A DNA stretch of 64,000 nt from Methanotorris igneus Kol 5 (GTDB taxonomy: Archaea > AGJL01 > Methanococci > Methanococcales > Methanococcaceae). Shown here piece after piece: positions 15,006-26,513 of the stretch; within the stretch, counting starts at the first letter, position 1; each line of letters opens with the position of its first letter. The notes under the pieces were generated by a model. The model was not told the DNA's origin and ran no database searches. It was given only the letters and a program-made list of their open reading frames with translations. Both the position numbers and the translations under genes were made by a program. Location of the stretch: NCBI RefSeq assembly GCF_000214415.1, contig NC_015562.1, positions 310,001 through 374,000 on the forward strand, written 5' to 3'.

Positions 15006-15907
15006 TTTTATCAGAGATTTTAAAAAATCTAAGGCCGTAGTTGCTATTAAACATATAAATAATTAAGTTATCTCAAAATTCTTTAAATGTTATGGGTTTT
15101 GTGTTTTTTAATTGCTTTACAATGATTAAGAAGGTGATGAAGTTAATTCATACATATAAATATTTAAATATGAAGTAAAGGTTAAAATATTATTGCTTAA
15201 TGTTATTCTTTATAACTTTATTATTAACAAGAAAAAGATGAAAAAAAATCAGTTAATAATATTTAAATACGTGATGGGCATTAGGGTTAACTCTAAAGTA
15301 GTAAAAGGACTATTTTTAGATTTTTGATTTATCTTGTCCTTTACTATAATCATTATTTGAACATTGATATGGATAAGTTTAAAAGTTTTCTTTTTTAGTA
15401 GGAAGTAACCTTCCGTTTACCGAAAAGTTTATATATTATATTTACACAATTACAAAACCAGACCCAGATAGATATAGAGGGTGACATTATGACGAGAGCC
15501 GCAGTGTTTCTTATATTTGCTATTGTTGTGCTCTCAAGGTGTACAAGTAACCAACCAACAACAAAATAATAAATTGCAAGAAGGTTAATATTTGATAATA
15601 ATTAAAAAGATCATATTAAGGCGTTAGTAATACTTAATTGTGAATGTTTAAAGCATTTATAAAACACAACCTCTTACACAAGCCACTACATCCAAATTCT
15701 TCAATTATACACCACCCTCACTTTTTGTATTCTATTTTTAACTCACCATATTTAAATTTTTTAATTATGCACCACCCTCATATTTGTATAATATTTTTGA
15801 TTATTACTAAATATTAACTTTTTTATAGTTTGTTATGATGTTCGGAGATACTGACATAATACGAAGTTATGAAACCATTATGCTTAAATACTTTTTGTCT
15901 TAATCTT
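15006..15907. other. long noncoding stretch with fossils and hairpins
   Basis: No intact gene. It holds an imperfect hairpin with arms AGTAAAAGGAC/GTCCTTTACT (about 15300-15352), the truncated modA-operon copy (15392-15569), two copies of the family C text TTTAAATTTTTTAATTATGCACCACCC (about 15700-15790), and a segment at 15783-15850 that is repeated in pieces at 22.57 and 22.81 kb (TTTTTGATTATTACTAAATAT; TTTTTTATAGTTTGTTATGA). Confidence 0.65.
15392..15569 (+). pseudogene. truncated duplicate of the small ORF plus modA signal peptide
   Basis: Almost identical to 23150-23315. It contains the last ~30 codons of the small upstream gene, the GGGTGAC ribosome site, and an ATG (15489) followed by a signal peptide ending LSRCTSNQPTTK and TAA (15567). 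The lipobox Gly is changed to Arg. Everything after the 26th codon of modA is missing. The truncation point equals the site where the functional modA has its displaced C-terminal half inserted. Confidence 0.85.
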
Positions 15908-21145: not shown

Positions 21146-22276
21146 ATGATTTCAGTCAGAGAAGCAGAGAAAATTTTAAGTAAATTTTATTTTAATAAAA
21201 CCGAATATATTAAAATAGAGGAGTCCTATGGTAGAGTTTTAGCAGAGGATATAATAAGCAACATTGACATCCCAAGGTTTGATAGGAGCGATATTGATGG
21301 CTATGCAGTTGCGGAAATTTTGGAGGAATATATTTTAATTGATGAGGTTTTTGCAGGGGATGATAAGGATTTGGAGATAAAAGGAAATGAATGCGTTTCA
21401 GTTGCTACTGGTGGAAAAGTTCCTAAAAATACAAAATATGTAATTCCAGTTGAGAATACAATAAAAATTGGTAATAAAATTGTTGTTATAAATTTTGATA
21501 GAATTGAAGGAATTTCAAAAAAGGGATGTGATGTTAAAAAAGGAGATATTATTTTAAAAAAAGGAACTTTAATAAATGAGAGGAATATTGGTGTTTTAGC
21601 ATGTTTGGGGATTGAAGAAGTAAAGGTTTATAAAACTCCAAAAGTTGGGATTATCTCAACCGGAAATGAGTTATTTAAAATGACAAAGGATATAAATTCA
21701 AAAACAATCGCATCTATTGTAAAGAAAGCAGGTTGCGAGCCAATATTTTTGGGAATTGCAAGAGATGATCCCAATGAAATAAAAGAACATATAATTGAAG
21801 CGTCAAAGAAATGCGATATTATTGTAACTTCTGGTGGTGTTTCCATTGGGAAGAAGGATTTTCTTCCAAGGATTGTTGATGAGTTAGGGGAAATATTATT
21901 TCATAAAGTTAAGATGCGCCCGGGAATGCCAATATTATTTGGAAAAATTGATAAAAAACCAATATTCTGTATGCCAGGGAATATTGTTTCATGTTTAGTT
22001 TGTAGTTATGTGTTTTTGCTCCCATTATTGATGAAAATGGCACATAAACCATATAGAAGAAAGATTATTAAAGCAAAACTATCTGAAAAAATAATATCTG
22101 AACCTGATTTTTTATATCTATGGCCTGTAAAATTAAAAAATGGCATAGCATATCCAACATTTAAGGGTTCTAACATGTTAACCTCAATATTGAATGCGGA
22201 TGGACTATCTGTAATAAAAGAACATGAGTTAAAAAAAGATGAAGGGGATATGGTAGATGTTTGGATTTTTGAATAG
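21146..22276 (+). CDS. moeA: molybdopterin molybdotransferase
   Basis: 376 residues, slightly shorter than bacterial MoeA. Inserts molybdate (or here perhaps tungstate) into adenylated molybdopterin. The N-terminal VREAEKILSKF, then RFDRSDIDGYAV, and GNECVSVATGGKVPKN are MoeA domain motifs; the MoCF-binding domain has ISTGNELF, TSGGVSIGKKDF, KVKMRPGMP and MPGNIVS. ATG behind GGTGATGTT. Placed after fwdB and before the molybdate/tungstate transporter, so it most likely serves the formylmethanofuran dehydrogenase encoded upstream. Confidence 0.95.
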   Translation: MISVREAEKILSKFYFNKTEYIKIEESYGRVLAEDIISNIDIPRFDRSDIDGYAVAEILEEYILIDEVFAGDDKDLEIKGNECVSVATGGKVPKNTKYVIPVENTIKIGNKIVVINFDRIEGISKKGCDVKKGDIILKKGTLINERNIGVLACLGIEEVKVYKTPKVGIISTGNELFKMTKDINSKTIASIVKKAGCEPIFLGIARDDPNEIKEHIIEASKKCDIIVTSGGVSIGKKDFLPRIVDELGEILFHKVKMRPGMPILFGKIDKKPIFCMPGNIVSCLVCSYVFLLPLLMKMAHKPYRRKIIKAKLSEKIISEPDFLYLWPVKLKNGIAYPTFKGSNMLTSILNADGLSVIKEHELKKDEGDMVDVWIFE

Positions 22277-22505: not shown

Positions 22506-23024
22506 ATCTACGGATATGCATTAGATATGCACAATCGGGTATTGCTAATATTCATACATTCACCTGTGTAGAATATTTGTATAGTATTTTTGATTATTAC
22601 TAAATATTTTAGTCTTGGACATTAATAAGTGGAAATTATTGTTTGGAAAATTATTATTGGTTTTATATTCAAAACCAAAAATTTATGGCAAAACTTTGTT
22701 TTGTTGTATAATTTTGTTGGGATAGATAAACTTTTAGAAAATTTAATAATACCAATATTCCAAAATCTTTATGGCAAAACCTTGGGTTTTGCCGTTATAA
22801 TTTTTGTTCGAGATTATGACTTTTTTATAGTTTGTTATGATGTTCAGATACTGTAATATATTCAAATTCATAAACGTAGTTTATATAGTTTTTCACTTAA
22901 CACAAACAATCATATTTAAATACTATTTTAGTAATGATTTTAGATTAATTATTGTGTATAATAGTAACTAATATTAATTAACATAAAATTAACAATGCCA
23001 CAAATATCGTGGAGGTTTAGAAAT
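22506..23024. other. noncoding region with duplicated segments and palindromes
   Basis: Between the ftsY fragment and the modA operon. Holds two GGCAAAAC palindromes (about 22686 and 22771), segments shared with 15.78-15.85 kb, and a TATA box TTATATAG at 22881-22888 that may drive the transporter operon. No gene recognised. Confidence 0.6.
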
Positions 23025-23243
23025 ATGAAAAATATTGATGATGAGGCAATACAAATTTTAATCAACGCTCCACTAATGTCAAACGACGAATTGAAAGAAG
23101 CATTATCTTATTTTAAAAAATTAGCAATGAAAAAAGGAATAAAAAAGATGTTTTTAGCAGGAAGTAACCTTCCGTTTACCGAAAAGTTTATATATTATAT
23201 TTACACAATTACAAAACCAGACCCAGATAGATATAGAGGGTGA
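23025..23243 (+). CDS. small hypothetical protein leading the modA operon
   Basis: 72 residues from ATG 23025, which has the strong site GGAGGTTTAGAAAT. Mostly helical by eye, charged, with no Cys and no membrane segment; the end KPDPDRYRG is distinctive. Its stop lies just 4 bases before the modA start, and the modA ribosome site lies in its last codons, so translation is probably coupled. I do not recognise the family. Its C-terminal third is duplicated at 15.4 kb. Could be a leader or a regulator of the transporter. Confidence 0.6.
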   Translation: MKNIDDEAIQILINAPLMSNDELKEALSYFKKLAMKKGIKKMFLAGSNLPFTEKFIYYIYTITKPDPDRYRG

Positions 23244-23247
23244 CCTT

Positions 23248-24057
23248 ATGAAAAAATCTGTGGTGTTTCTTATATTTGCTATTGTTGTGCTCTCAGGGTG
23301 CACAAGTAACCAACCAACAACAAAAATAGAAAAATTTGAAGATTTGGGAAATGATGGGGTGACAATATCCATAGGAAACCCAGAACATGTCCCAGCTGGA
23401 AGGTATGCAATGGAAGTTTTAGACAACTTAAGAAAATCAAATCCAAAACTTACAGATAAAATAATAAAAAATATTGTCTCAAAAGAATCCAATGTTAGGG
23501 CTGTTTTAGATAAAGTCGTTTCAAAAGAAGTGGATGCAGGGTTTGTTTATAGAACCGATGCATATATGGAAAAAGACAAGGTGAAAATCATCAAAATCCC
23601 AAAAGAAATTAATGTAGTTCCCGAATATCCTATTGCAGTACTAAAGGATAGTGACGATAAAGAGAGAGCAGAAGAGTTTGTTAAATTCGTCCTTTCAAAA
23701 GAAGGGCAGGAAATATTGGAAAAATATGGGTTTATTCCAATAAAGAACCCACAATCTTACGAACCAAAGAAAATTGGTGGAGAAATTATTGTTTATGCTG
23801 CTGCATCATTAACAGATGCGTTTAAAGAAATATCTAATGAATTTGAGAAAAAAACTGGATGCAAAGTAAAATTATTATTTGCAAGTTCAGGTTCTTTGAG
23901 ACAAAGAATAGAAGGTGGGGCAGTAGGTGGGGAAAGTGGAGCAGATGTTTTTGCTTCAGCAAGCTTGAAACACATGAACATTCTCAAAAAAGAAGGATTT
24001 GTGGACAATTACAGCATATTCGCAAAGAATGAACTTGTAGTTATAACTCCAAAATAA
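23248..24057 (+). CDS. modA: molybdate/tungstate-binding lipoprotein, circularly permuted ModA
   Basis: 269 residues. A signal peptide ends in LSGC (lipobox Cys18), so the mature protein is lipid-anchored outside the cell. ModA normally reads IIVYAAASLTDAF...ELVVITPK then FEDL...IGNPEHVPAGRY...YGFIPI. Here the order is reversed: residues 27-165 are the C-terminal half (IGNPEHVPAGRY, VYRTDA, VPEYPIAVLK, KYGFIPI) and residues 179-269 are the N-terminal half (IIVYAAASLTDA, FASSGSL, ADVFASAS, ending VVITPK and TAA). Both sets of oxyanion-binding residues seem kept: the Ser of AAASL and FASS, and the Tyr of VYRTDA. The joint KNPQSYEPKKIGGE looks like a post-lipobox linker. First component of modABC. 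Confidence 0.88.
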   Translation: MKKSVVFLIFAIVVLSGCTSNQPTTKIEKFEDLGNDGVTISIGNPEHVPAGRYAMEVLDNLRKSNPKLTDKIIKNIVSKESNVRAVLDKVVSKEVDAGFVYRTDAYMEKDKVKIIKIPKEINVVPEYPIAVLKDSDDKERAEEFVKFVLSKEGQEILEKYGFIPIKNPQSYEPKKIGGEIIVYAAASLTDAFKEISNEFEKKTGCKVKLLFASSGSLRQRIEGGAVGGESGADVFASASLKHMNILKKEGFVDNYSIFAKNELVVITPK

Positions 24058-24078
24058 TGCAGTAAATACGTGGTAAGT

Positions 24079-24849
24079 ATGCAACCAATAACATTTAGAT
24101 TTTTGATTGGATTTAGCATAACTGTGTTTATTTTGCTGATTATCATGCCATTTGTGGCTTTATTATTTAATATACTTTCAAATCCTTTGGAAGAACTCAT
24201 TGATTACAAATCTATACTGAATCCCCTAATTTTAAGCGTTACAACCTCTCTTGTATCAACAATAATTTCGCTATGCGTTGGAATTCCATTGGCATATATC
24301 CTAACTTACAAAAAGTTCCCACTAAAGGATGTATTTGATACTATTGTTAATTTACCACTTGTAGTACCTCCAACTGTTGCTGGATATTTACTTTTAATAA
24401 CCTTTGGAAGATACGGGTTGATTGGTTACCCATTGCATTTATTGGGCATCACAATAATGTTTACGACCTTTGCAATTGTTATAGCTCAGACATTTGTTGC
24501 TCTCCCATTTATGGTAAGAAGTATTAGGGCATCACTCCAAGATATTCCATCCTCATTAGTTGATGCCGCAAAAACACTTGGGGCAAGTGAATATGAGATA
24601 TTCAAGGAAATAATTTTGCCCCTATCAAAAACTGGAATCATATCAGGAATAATATTAACCTATGCGAGGGCTATGGGAGAATTTGGAGCTACGGTAATGG
24701 TTTGTGGACTTTTAGAGACCTTACCAATTGCAATATTCAACAGTGCGATGGGGGGAAATAGAGAAATTGCAAACATTCTGTCTTTGATTTTGATTGTAAT
24801 ATCATTTGGAATTTTAACATTATTCAAAAGAATTGCCGCAAAGGGATGA
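24079..24849 (+). CDS. modB: molybdate/tungstate ABC transporter permease
   Basis: 256 residues with about five to six helices. Channel subunit of the importer. The cytoplasmic EAA loop that contacts the ATPase reads DAAKTLGASEYEIFKEIILPLSKTGIISG; ARAMGEFGATVMVCG is the typical ModB/WtpB segment near the pore. ATG 24079 has CGTGGT before it and is preferred over GTG 24070. It overlaps the leader of modC by a few bases, so the three genes form one operon. Confidence 0.95.
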   Translation: MQPITFRFLIGFSITVFILLIIMPFVALLFNILSNPLEELIDYKSILNPLILSVTTSLVSTIISLCVGIPLAYILTYKKFPLKDVFDTIVNLPLVVPPTVAGYLLLITFGRYGLIGYPLHLLGITIMFTTFAIVIAQTFVALPFMVRSIRASLQDIPSSLVDAAKTLGASEYEIFKEIILPLSKTGIISGIILTYARAMGEFGATVMVCGLLETLPIAIFNSAMGGNREIANILSLILIVISFGILTLFKRIAAKG

Positions 24850-24853
24850 TACC

Positions 24854-26008
24854 ATGATAGAAATTAACAACATATCAAAAAGAATAGATGGGCAAGAAAT
24901 TCTGAATGATGTAAGTTTTAGTGTAAATGATAGTGAGATTATGGTTTTGTTAGGGCCGAGTGGTTGTGGAAAAACTACGCTCCTAAAAATTATAGCAGGA
25001 TTGTTGAAGCAGGATTATGGAGATGTGGTAATTAATGGCAAAGTAATAAACGACTTACCCCCACAAAAAAGGAATGTAGGGTTTGTTTTTCAGGATTATG
25101 CCCTTTTCCCACACAAAAATGTTTTTGAAAACATAGCATTTGGATTAAAAATTAGAAAAATACCTGAAAATGAGATTAAAAAAAGAGTATATGAAATACT
25201 GGAAATCCTTGAGATCACACACTTAAAAGATAAAAAAATCCCTCAGTTAAGTGGGGGGCAAAAGCAGAGGGTTGCATTGGCAAGGGCTTTAGTTATTAAT
25301 CCTGATGTTCTATTATTGGATGAGCCGTTGAGTGCTTTAGACCCAGTTTTAAGGGAGAAATTAAGGGAGGAGTTAAAGGCCATACTAAAAAATTTAGGAG
25401 TTACAGGAATTTATGTAACCCACGACTTAACAGAGGCTATGTTGTTGGGGGATAGTGTTGCAGTGATGAATAAAGGAGAGATCCAGCAAATTGGAAAGCC
25501 AGATGAAATCTTTTATCATCCAAAAAATGAATTTGTCGCAAAGTTCGTTGGCGTAAAGAACATTTTAAAAGGAAATATAAAAGAACTTAAAGATGATATA
25601 GCAACAGTAGAGGTAGTTAATGAGGGGCTGAAATCACCATTCACAATAAAAGTTAAAAAATACCCTATCTTTGAAAGAAAACATAACAATAATATCTCTC
25701 TATGTATTCACCCAGAAGATATTATATTAGATAAAACAAAAAAATATGAAAATGCCATAAAAGGAAAAATCATCAACATAATTCCAAATGGTTCTGTATT
25801 GAAGGTTGTTGTGGATATTGGTGGTTTGGAAATTTATGCAGTTACAACAAGGCACCTTTTAAAATACGATGTGAATGATGAAGTTTGGGTTTCATTTAGC
25901 AGAGAAGCCCCCCACCCAATGTGTGGTAAAAAATGCAAATCTCCAAACCAAGAAGCATTATGTAAATGCAAAGCACTTAAAAACACAATTGAGGAAATTG
26001 AATATTAA
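24854..26008 (+). CDS. modC: molybdate/tungstate ABC transporter ATPase with regulatory C-domain and cysteine tail
   Basis: 384 residues. Walker A GPSGCGKT, signature LSGGQKQR, Walker B VLLLDEPLSALD and the switch HD are intact. After about residue 230 comes a Mop/TOBE-type domain that in related WtpC/ModC proteins binds oxyanion and inhibits transport. The last 30 residues hold PMCGKKCKSPNQEALCKCK, a cluster of Cys residues that I do not expect in ModC; it might bind a metal or FeS cluster or sense redox state (inference). ATG 24854 follows GGGATGATACC inside the end of modB. Confidence 0.93.
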   Translation: MIEINNISKRIDGQEILNDVSFSVNDSEIMVLLGPSGCGKTTLLKIIAGLLKQDYGDVVINGKVINDLPPQKRNVGFVFQDYALFPHKNVFENIAFGLKIRKIPENEIKKRVYEILEILEITHLKDKKIPQLSGGQKQRVALARALVINPDVLLLDEPLSALDPVLREKLREELKAILKNLGVTGIYVTHDLTEAMLLGDSVAVMNKGEIQQIGKPDEIFYHPKNEFVAKFVGVKNILKGNIKELKDDIATVEVVNEGLKSPFTIKVKKYPIFERKHNNNISLCIHPEDIILDKTKKYENAIKGKIINIIPNGSVLKVVVDIGGLEIYAVTTRHLLKYDVNDEVWVSFSREAPHPMCGKKCKSPNQEALCKCKALKNTIEEIEY

Positions 26009-26018
26009 GGTGATTATT

Positions 26019-26513
26019 ATGGCAGTGATAACAATTAAAAAGGATTTTGTGGAAATTAAAAGAAAATTAATGGAGAAAAACGTTAAAACTGTAATGGTAA
26101 TAGGTTGTGGCATATGTGCGAAGAGTAGCAAAACAGGAGGTCCAGAAGAGGTAAAAGAAATGAAAAAAATGCTTATTGAGGAAGGATTTAGAATATTTGA
26201 AGATGAAAATTTACCAGATTCTTTAGAGGATGGGTTATGTAGATATAGTGCTGTTGAAAAGTTGGCAAAAAGTGTAGATGTGGATTCATTCGATTCCATA
26301 TTGGTACTTGCATGTGGGGCAGGGTTAAAGTGTATTGCTGATAATTTTAAAGACAAAAAGATAATTTCTGGAGTAAACACAATAGGAATTGGTATTAAGG
26401 AGAAACTTGTATGCCTTGCATGTGGGGATTGTGGATTTGATGATGGTGTTTGCAAGAGATTAGCGATAATTGAGGAGATAAACAAACATTTAAAAAGGTC
26501 ATATAATACATAA
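26019..26513 (+). CDS. MetV-like / MTHFR C-terminal-type cysteine protein
   Basis: 164 residues. VMVIGCGICAKSSKTGG, VLACGAGLKC and CLACGDCGFDDGVC match what I recall of the MetV-like domain found with methylene-tetrahydrofolate reductases in acetogens, where it helps form an FeS electron-transfer module. Here it follows modC by ten bases in the same direction, ATG behind AAGGTGATTATT, and no MetF is near. A role in electron delivery or metal handling for the island is inference. The longer frame starting inside modC is rejected. Confidence 0.7.
   Translation: MAVITIKKDFVEIKRKLMEKNVKTVMVIGCGICAKSSKTGGPEEVKEMKKMLIEEGFRIFEDENLPDSLEDGLCRYSAVEKLAKSVDVDSFDSILVLACGAGLKCIADNFKDKKIISGVNTIGIGIKEKLVCLACGDCGFDDGVCKRLAIIEEINKHLKRSYNT

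Follow-up and report, generated by a model that had tools for sequence, protein, structure and literature searches.

A natural circular permutation of the molybdate-binding protein ModA, under selection in an intact mod operon of Methanotorris igneus

An open reading frame in the window (the whole 64,000-nucleotide stretch of Methanotorris igneus Kol 5 DNA that was analysed) appears to encode the molybdate-binding protein ModA with its two halves in reverse order, and the question raised by this locus is whether the order is genuine and whether the protein works. The answer reached here, which we hold with high confidence, is that the product serves a ModABC importer as its molybdate-binding lipoprotein, with a chain that was circularly permuted in a single origin and, in the archaea, a main role in supplying molybdenum to nitrogenase. 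The gene and its product are laid out as follows.

23248–24057, + strand: permuted modA open reading frame, 269-residue protein (from translation)
23248–23301, + strand: lipoprotein leader, residues 1–18, with lipobox LSGC and lipidated Cys18; the GC is invariant in six archaeal permuted proteins
23302–23322, + strand: short tether between the lipid anchor and lobe B, residues 19–25
23323–23742, + strand: old C-terminal part of ModA, residues 26–165, KIEKFEDLGNDGVTISIGNPEHVPAGRYA...KYGFIPI (from profile and structure matches)
23743–23784, + strand: linker KNPQSYEPKKIGGE, residues 166–179, from the old C terminus to the old N terminus
23785–24054, + strand: old N-terminal part of ModA, residues 180–269, IIVYAAASLTDAF...ELVVITPK (from profile and structure matches)
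23923–23937, + strand: five-residue insertion, about VGGES, residues 226–230, present in all permuted ModA and absent from normal ModA (from alignments)

Behind the leader, the product carries the normally last 60% of ModA, the 14-residue linker and the normally first 40%, followed by a stop. The old C-terminal part holds lobe B from helix 4, the predicted second hinge and the last strand and helices of lobe A, while the old N-terminal part holds the first part of lobe A, the predicted first hinge and the lobe-B strand LVVITPK. The Pfam family SBP_bac_11 (1.7e-57) and the NCBIfam modA family TIGR01256 (6.3e-51; 173.4 bits, against a curated cut-off of 62.5 bits) both match the protein in two stretches in swapped order, with residues 12–161 corresponding to TIGR01256 positions 76–217 and residues from about 180 to 269 to the profile start. 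Each of 13 solved ModA structures also matched in two swapped stretches, and chance is excluded as the source of such matches. Restoring the halves to the normal order gave a single TIGR01256 match covering positions 1–217 of 217 (189.2 bits) and a single match to E. coli ModA (1amf) covering 3–231 of 233, and a doubled copy of the natural chain gave a full-length TIGR01256 match across its junction. At the cut, just two or three residues, ‘GN(P)’, are missing in comparison with normal ModA of the same archaeal order. Alignment in both orders, two stretches in the natural one and one full-length match in the restored one, bears out the sequence-only reading that had placed two reversed ModA halves behind one lipoprotein signal, with the old ends joined by a linker. 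Taken together, both parts are homologous to one parent, stand in swapped order and are joined at the old termini, and the product is a complete circular permutation of ModA; with its C half before its N half, it is a permuted variant rather than a typical member of TIGR01256.

An assembly that had put the two halves of a normal modA together the wrong way round would look the same, and the oddity of the gene is the one point in favour of such an artefact. The window lies within a single contig of 1,854,197 bp. A search of related genomes for the swapped order, covering 36 genomes of the archaeal order Methanococcales, identified identical half order and junctions in six others, with identities of 89% (G035), 78% (G034), 74% (G023) and 64–65% (G031, G032 and G029). 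A wider search of 399 genomes of one bacterial phylum added one bacterium, G378, the only carrier among 26 genomes of its class, whose permuted ModA aligns over residues 10–269 in one stretch at about 52–53% identity (E 5e-87). The order and junctions thus recur in six archaea and one bacterium, at 52–89% identity and under purifying selection, and since independent genomes share the order, misassembly is excluded; the probability left to it is negligible. All of the permuted proteins have in common the five-residue insertion (GGAVGGExGADVF versus GGAPVDVF) and a recognisable linker.

The bacterial gene is surrounded by an AbrB-like gene, proC, purine-catabolism amidohydrolases, a molybdenum-hydroxylase 2Fe-2S subunit and a molybdopterin-binding protein, at a G+C content of 50%; since these neighbours are bacterial, the permuted modA is not stray archaeal DNA. 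It is followed by modB and then by the molybdopterin-binding protein. Its position (L120:8906-9763) beside molybdenum-hydroxylase and purine-catabolism genes rather than nif represents a second physiological setting. Beyond the archaeal order, sampling covered this one bacterial phylum, plasmids and viral contigs. No ModA, permuted or normal, was found in the viral contigs scanned, and a scan of genome contigs found just one distant protein, in a Megamonas MAG. On plasmids, each of the 15 best among 129 ModA records matched in two pieces, consistent with the normal order, and the plasmids contained no close match to the bacterial permuted ModA.

The location of the cut relative to the two lobes was derived from published structures. 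Lobe A of ModA comprises strands 1–4, strand 10 and the last helices, and lobe B comprises strands 5–9 (PMC11734730); the hinges of Pseudomonas aeruginosa ModA are at Gly104-Thr105 and His209-Ile212 (PMC9171197). Transferred to E. coli ModA, these hinges fall just before LVVVAPK and at KVEY, and the numbering offsets of ligand residues suggest hinges at about residues 261–262 and 124–127 of the permuted protein. This placement makes LVVITPK the first strand of lobe B and puts the cut in the loop after it. The new ends are therefore predicted to lie in a surface loop of lobe B (β5-α4), about seven residues past the hinge, with both hinge strands kept. An earlier claim that they fall exactly where the chain crosses between lobes is corrected by the literature topology, in which LVVITPK stands first in lobe B.

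The five oxyanion contacts of E. coli ModA (listed in PMC7604516), Ser12, Ser39, Ala125, Val152 and Tyr170, align with Ser187, Ser214, Ala50, Val83 and Tyr101, respectively, in agreement with the earlier statement that both half-sites are kept. Four of the five are invariant across the six archaeal permuted proteins; the caveat is Ser187, which is replaced by Gly in three relatives (G029, G031 and G032). In the old N half of L008, L009 and L010 the oxyanion motif AAASL is changed to GGAGM, like the VGAGM of a separate, normal-order Methanococcales ModA family, a resemblance that may reflect convergence or gene conversion. AlphaFold models of the mature protein, built from its own sequence or with fragments of a distant binding protein added, two in number (one or three alignment rows), gave pLDDT values of 41 and 44. 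Since no strand, helix, hinge segment or oxyanion contact is missing, the two-lobed ModA trap should still fold, and it should close on molybdate and pass it to ModB. The old ends, both in lobe A, would be bridged by the linker, and the new ends would open the loop between the LVVITPK strand and the first helix of lobe B. The membrane anchor would thereby have moved from lobe A to lobe B, on a tether of about seven residues, as the sole plain mechanical change.

In the surroundings of the gene, the following features were found.

21146–22276, + strand: moeA, molybdopterin biosynthesis, upstream neighbour of the permuted modA
23160–23173, no strand assigned: exact NrpR-type operator GGAAN6TTCC, GGAAGTAACCTTCC, upstream of the permuted modA (0.57 expected per 64 kb)
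23187–23197, + strand: putative TATA-like box of the archaeal modA promoter, read from the sequence
24070–24849, + strand: modB, molybdate ABC permease (TIGR02141, above cut-off)
24854–26008, + strand: modC-type ATPase with a TOBE domain
26019–26513, + strand: fourth cassette gene, about 160 residues, cysteine-rich (VIGCGxCA, LACGDC), 64–72% identity across carriers
15392–15573, + strand: partial copy of the modA operator, promoter and leader, 182 bp, 92% identical to 23151–23332, with a stop after 25 codons

The mod operon is intact, as had been stated, with modB and modC following the permuted modA in the same direction. The same two genes follow it in the archaeal carriers, as does the conserved fourth gene where the sequence could be read far enough. 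The product of this fourth gene matched no Pfam or NCBIfam family and is a candidate partner in molybdenum handling. Side matches of modC and the fourth gene to Rad17, AAA and aspartate aminotransferase were considered and dropped. Elsewhere in the window, 15392–15846 is a mosaic copied from the moeA-modA intergenic region, which also contains two short pieces matching 22573–22608 and 22819–22848 and leaves a 25-codon leader ORF before an fmdE-like gene. In two loci from Methanococcus-type genomes (L112 and L114), a normal-order modA lies beside moeA and an fwdB-like gene, as around the permuted modA here, though modB is just ~41% identical.

The gene could instead be what remains of a tandem modA duplication, either in decay or without function. 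In G035, of the same genus, a two-base deletion in an A-run just after the leader (L005 positions 1495–1520) breaks the frame of a permuted modA that is otherwise intact at 89% identity, representing either decay to a pseudogene or a draft sequencing error. The truncated leader copy at 15392 would also suit a relic, as would the normal-order ModA encoded elsewhere in the M. igneus genome (C1:1047255–1047953; 36–40% identity). A nearby normal modA had been named as a possible objection to function; a normal copy does exist, but it lies ~714 kb away and is without adjacent modBC. Function is not thereby refuted, since no ModA other than the permuted one was found either in a complete archaeal genome (G029, a single contig, 99% complete, in which no WtpA was found) or in one bacterium (G378). 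Against decay, dN/dS between archaeal permuted modA genes is 0.08–0.24, down to ~60% identity and with some dS values saturated, similar to that of modB (0.06–0.17), and operon and operators are conserved. Together with the published induction described below, these findings make a relic highly improbable. The earlier impression that the gene looks functional is strengthened by purifying selection, by one clade for each half, by the conserved operon and operators and by the seven further genomes; the data support selection on a naturally permuted ModA whose mod operon is intact.

Links to nitrogen fixation were found in the gene order and the promoters. The cassette lies directly behind the nif operon, after nifN, in four of the seven archaeal copies (G034, G029, G031 and G032), the order in G034 being nifH I1 I2 D K X E N and then modA (genes named by how their sequences resemble known ones and by nifD-family matches). 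A strong nifD match is present in each of the seven archaeal carriers, and genomes without nifD contained no permuted copies. The six archaeal promoters checked all carry an exact GGAAN6TTCC, 23–90 bp ahead of the start, and in two of these it is paired, 33 bp apart, as before nifH. This sequence is the operator of the Methanococcus repressor NrpR, found before nif and two molybdate operons (PMC2723118). Of three modA genes in Methanothermococcus thermolithotrophicus, the nif-adjacent one, within modABC, was induced on N2 in a transcriptome study (log2FC 5.5), while the two without modBC were not (PMC9765008). G034 likewise has three modA genes, two of them without modBC, and no WtpA was found in it; since it fits M. 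thermolithotrophicus in nif order, in the number and setting of modA and in the lack of WtpA, the induced gene is very probably the permuted gene of G034. The archaeal permuted ModA would then mainly supply molybdenum to nitrogenase, with its gene controlled by the nitrogen repressor NrpR.

A permuted ModA-like protein might also bind tungstate or another oxyanion, or have a specialised selectivity, in keeping with the Gly at position 187 in three members, with the reported insensitivity of M. thermolithotrophicus diazotrophy to tungstate (PMC9765008) and with the standing of the VGAGM-type ModA of the same order as a separate family. We judge this unlikely, given that the six archaeal proteins do not vary at the other four oxyanion contacts and that the nif and NrpR links point to molybdenum.

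The origin of the permutation was investigated by constructing trees from each half. The seven intact permuted proteins form one group with the old N half (96/95), with the old C half (96/90) and with both (87/97), although in the N-half tree the divergent normal copy of M. igneus, G000n, is placed within it as a long branch. The simplest reading is a single origin. A joining of halves from two different ModA proteins would be consistent with the unequal identity to Methanococcus ModA, 52–59% in the N half versus 42–46% in the C half; this is improbable, however, since both halves group the permuted proteins among the same AAASL-type ModA and the restored chain is a single end-to-end match to one ModA model. 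A fusion of unrelated halves was also considered and dropped. Tandem duplication, in-frame fusion and trimming are the standard route to a permutation. Most simply, the permuted gene would have arisen once: a modA duplicated in tandem would have fused in frame with its copy, shed the outer parts, and either retained the original leader or acquired it again. Spread from one lineage to another would have followed, also between a bacterium and Methanococcales. The C-half tree places permuted ModA next to ModA of bacteria and not of Methanococcus, a hint, though no proof, that the gene entered the archaea from bacteria. Among the archaea the permuted gene is patchily distributed. The ModA of G023 is nearer to that of M. 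igneus (G000; 73%) than to that of G031 (56%), a member of its own genus, whereas the chaperonin shows the opposite (78% versus 84%), and this discord makes transfer or loss within archaea likely. The permuted form is a reworked version of a standard nutrient-uptake protein, and it is old and inherited.

The permuted protein was compared with known systems. By profile and PDB sequence matches it belongs to the type II ModA family and not to the type I sugar-binding fold. It resembles the ModA proteins of cluster D-IIIa (type II; TIGR01256, e.g. 1amf, 7tav and 4kd5) in all its secondary elements, five contacts, lipoprotein or secreted form and association with modBC, and differs from them in its swapped halves, linked old ends, new ends in the β5-α4 loop and the five-residue insertion in the old N half. 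TpMglB-2 (Tp0684; Type Ic/Cluster Bc) likewise serves an ABC importer as a lipid-anchored binding protein with a natural permutation; several lineages have inherited it, both its termini lie in one lobe, and this glucose-binding lipoprotein still binds and closes (PMC4990184). Unlike permuted ModA, it has a type I fold and a sugar ligand, and the permutation there shifts three strands inside a lobe and creates a fourth crossing (PMC4990184); its permuted part is 13% identical to the normal protein, whereas the halves of permuted ModA are plainly homologous by sequence. Circular permutation within the type II fold is also known for the glycine-betaine-binding proteins OpuAC and ProX, a relation that extends to the ModA structures 1ATG and 1AMF (CPSARST, PMC2395249). 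Those proteins are of different families, with <24% identity, and their permutation is seen by structure only; the ModA case lies within one family, and its unpermuted relatives still occur in the same archaeal order. Related Methanococcus-type ModA proteins (G015–G018) are in the normal order, and their ModB is just ~41% identical. As molybdenum importers with an NrpR operator, the modABC operons of Methanococcus maripaludis (MMP0205-0207 and MMP0504-0507) are similar to the cassette described here; they are NrpR-controlled and raised under nitrogen limitation (PMC2723118). In the literature searched, no permuted member of the ModA family was described, and such a member appears to be new, although permuted binding proteins as such are known.

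The finding is not a new principle, but it is well supported and of interest for protein evolution and for the supply of molybdenum to archaeal nitrogenase. Permuted ModA may further represent a separate, horizontally moving, lobe-B-anchored class in which the permutation itself alters selectivity or kinetics, a possibility that we regard as doubtful. Were it true, such proteins might discriminate against tungstate or release molybdate fast at high temperature, and this would underlie the reported tungstate-tolerant diazotrophy of thermophilic methanogens. For genome annotation, the gene serves as a warning that order-aware domain calls split permuted genes into two partial matches. With permuted and unpermuted ModA present in one archaeal order and even in one cell, as near relatives to compare, the family offers an inherited natural experiment. 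It makes testable both the effect of circular permutation on the closing, affinity, anchoring and docking of a Venus-flytrap protein and the reason why diazotrophic methanogens carry several ModA proteins.
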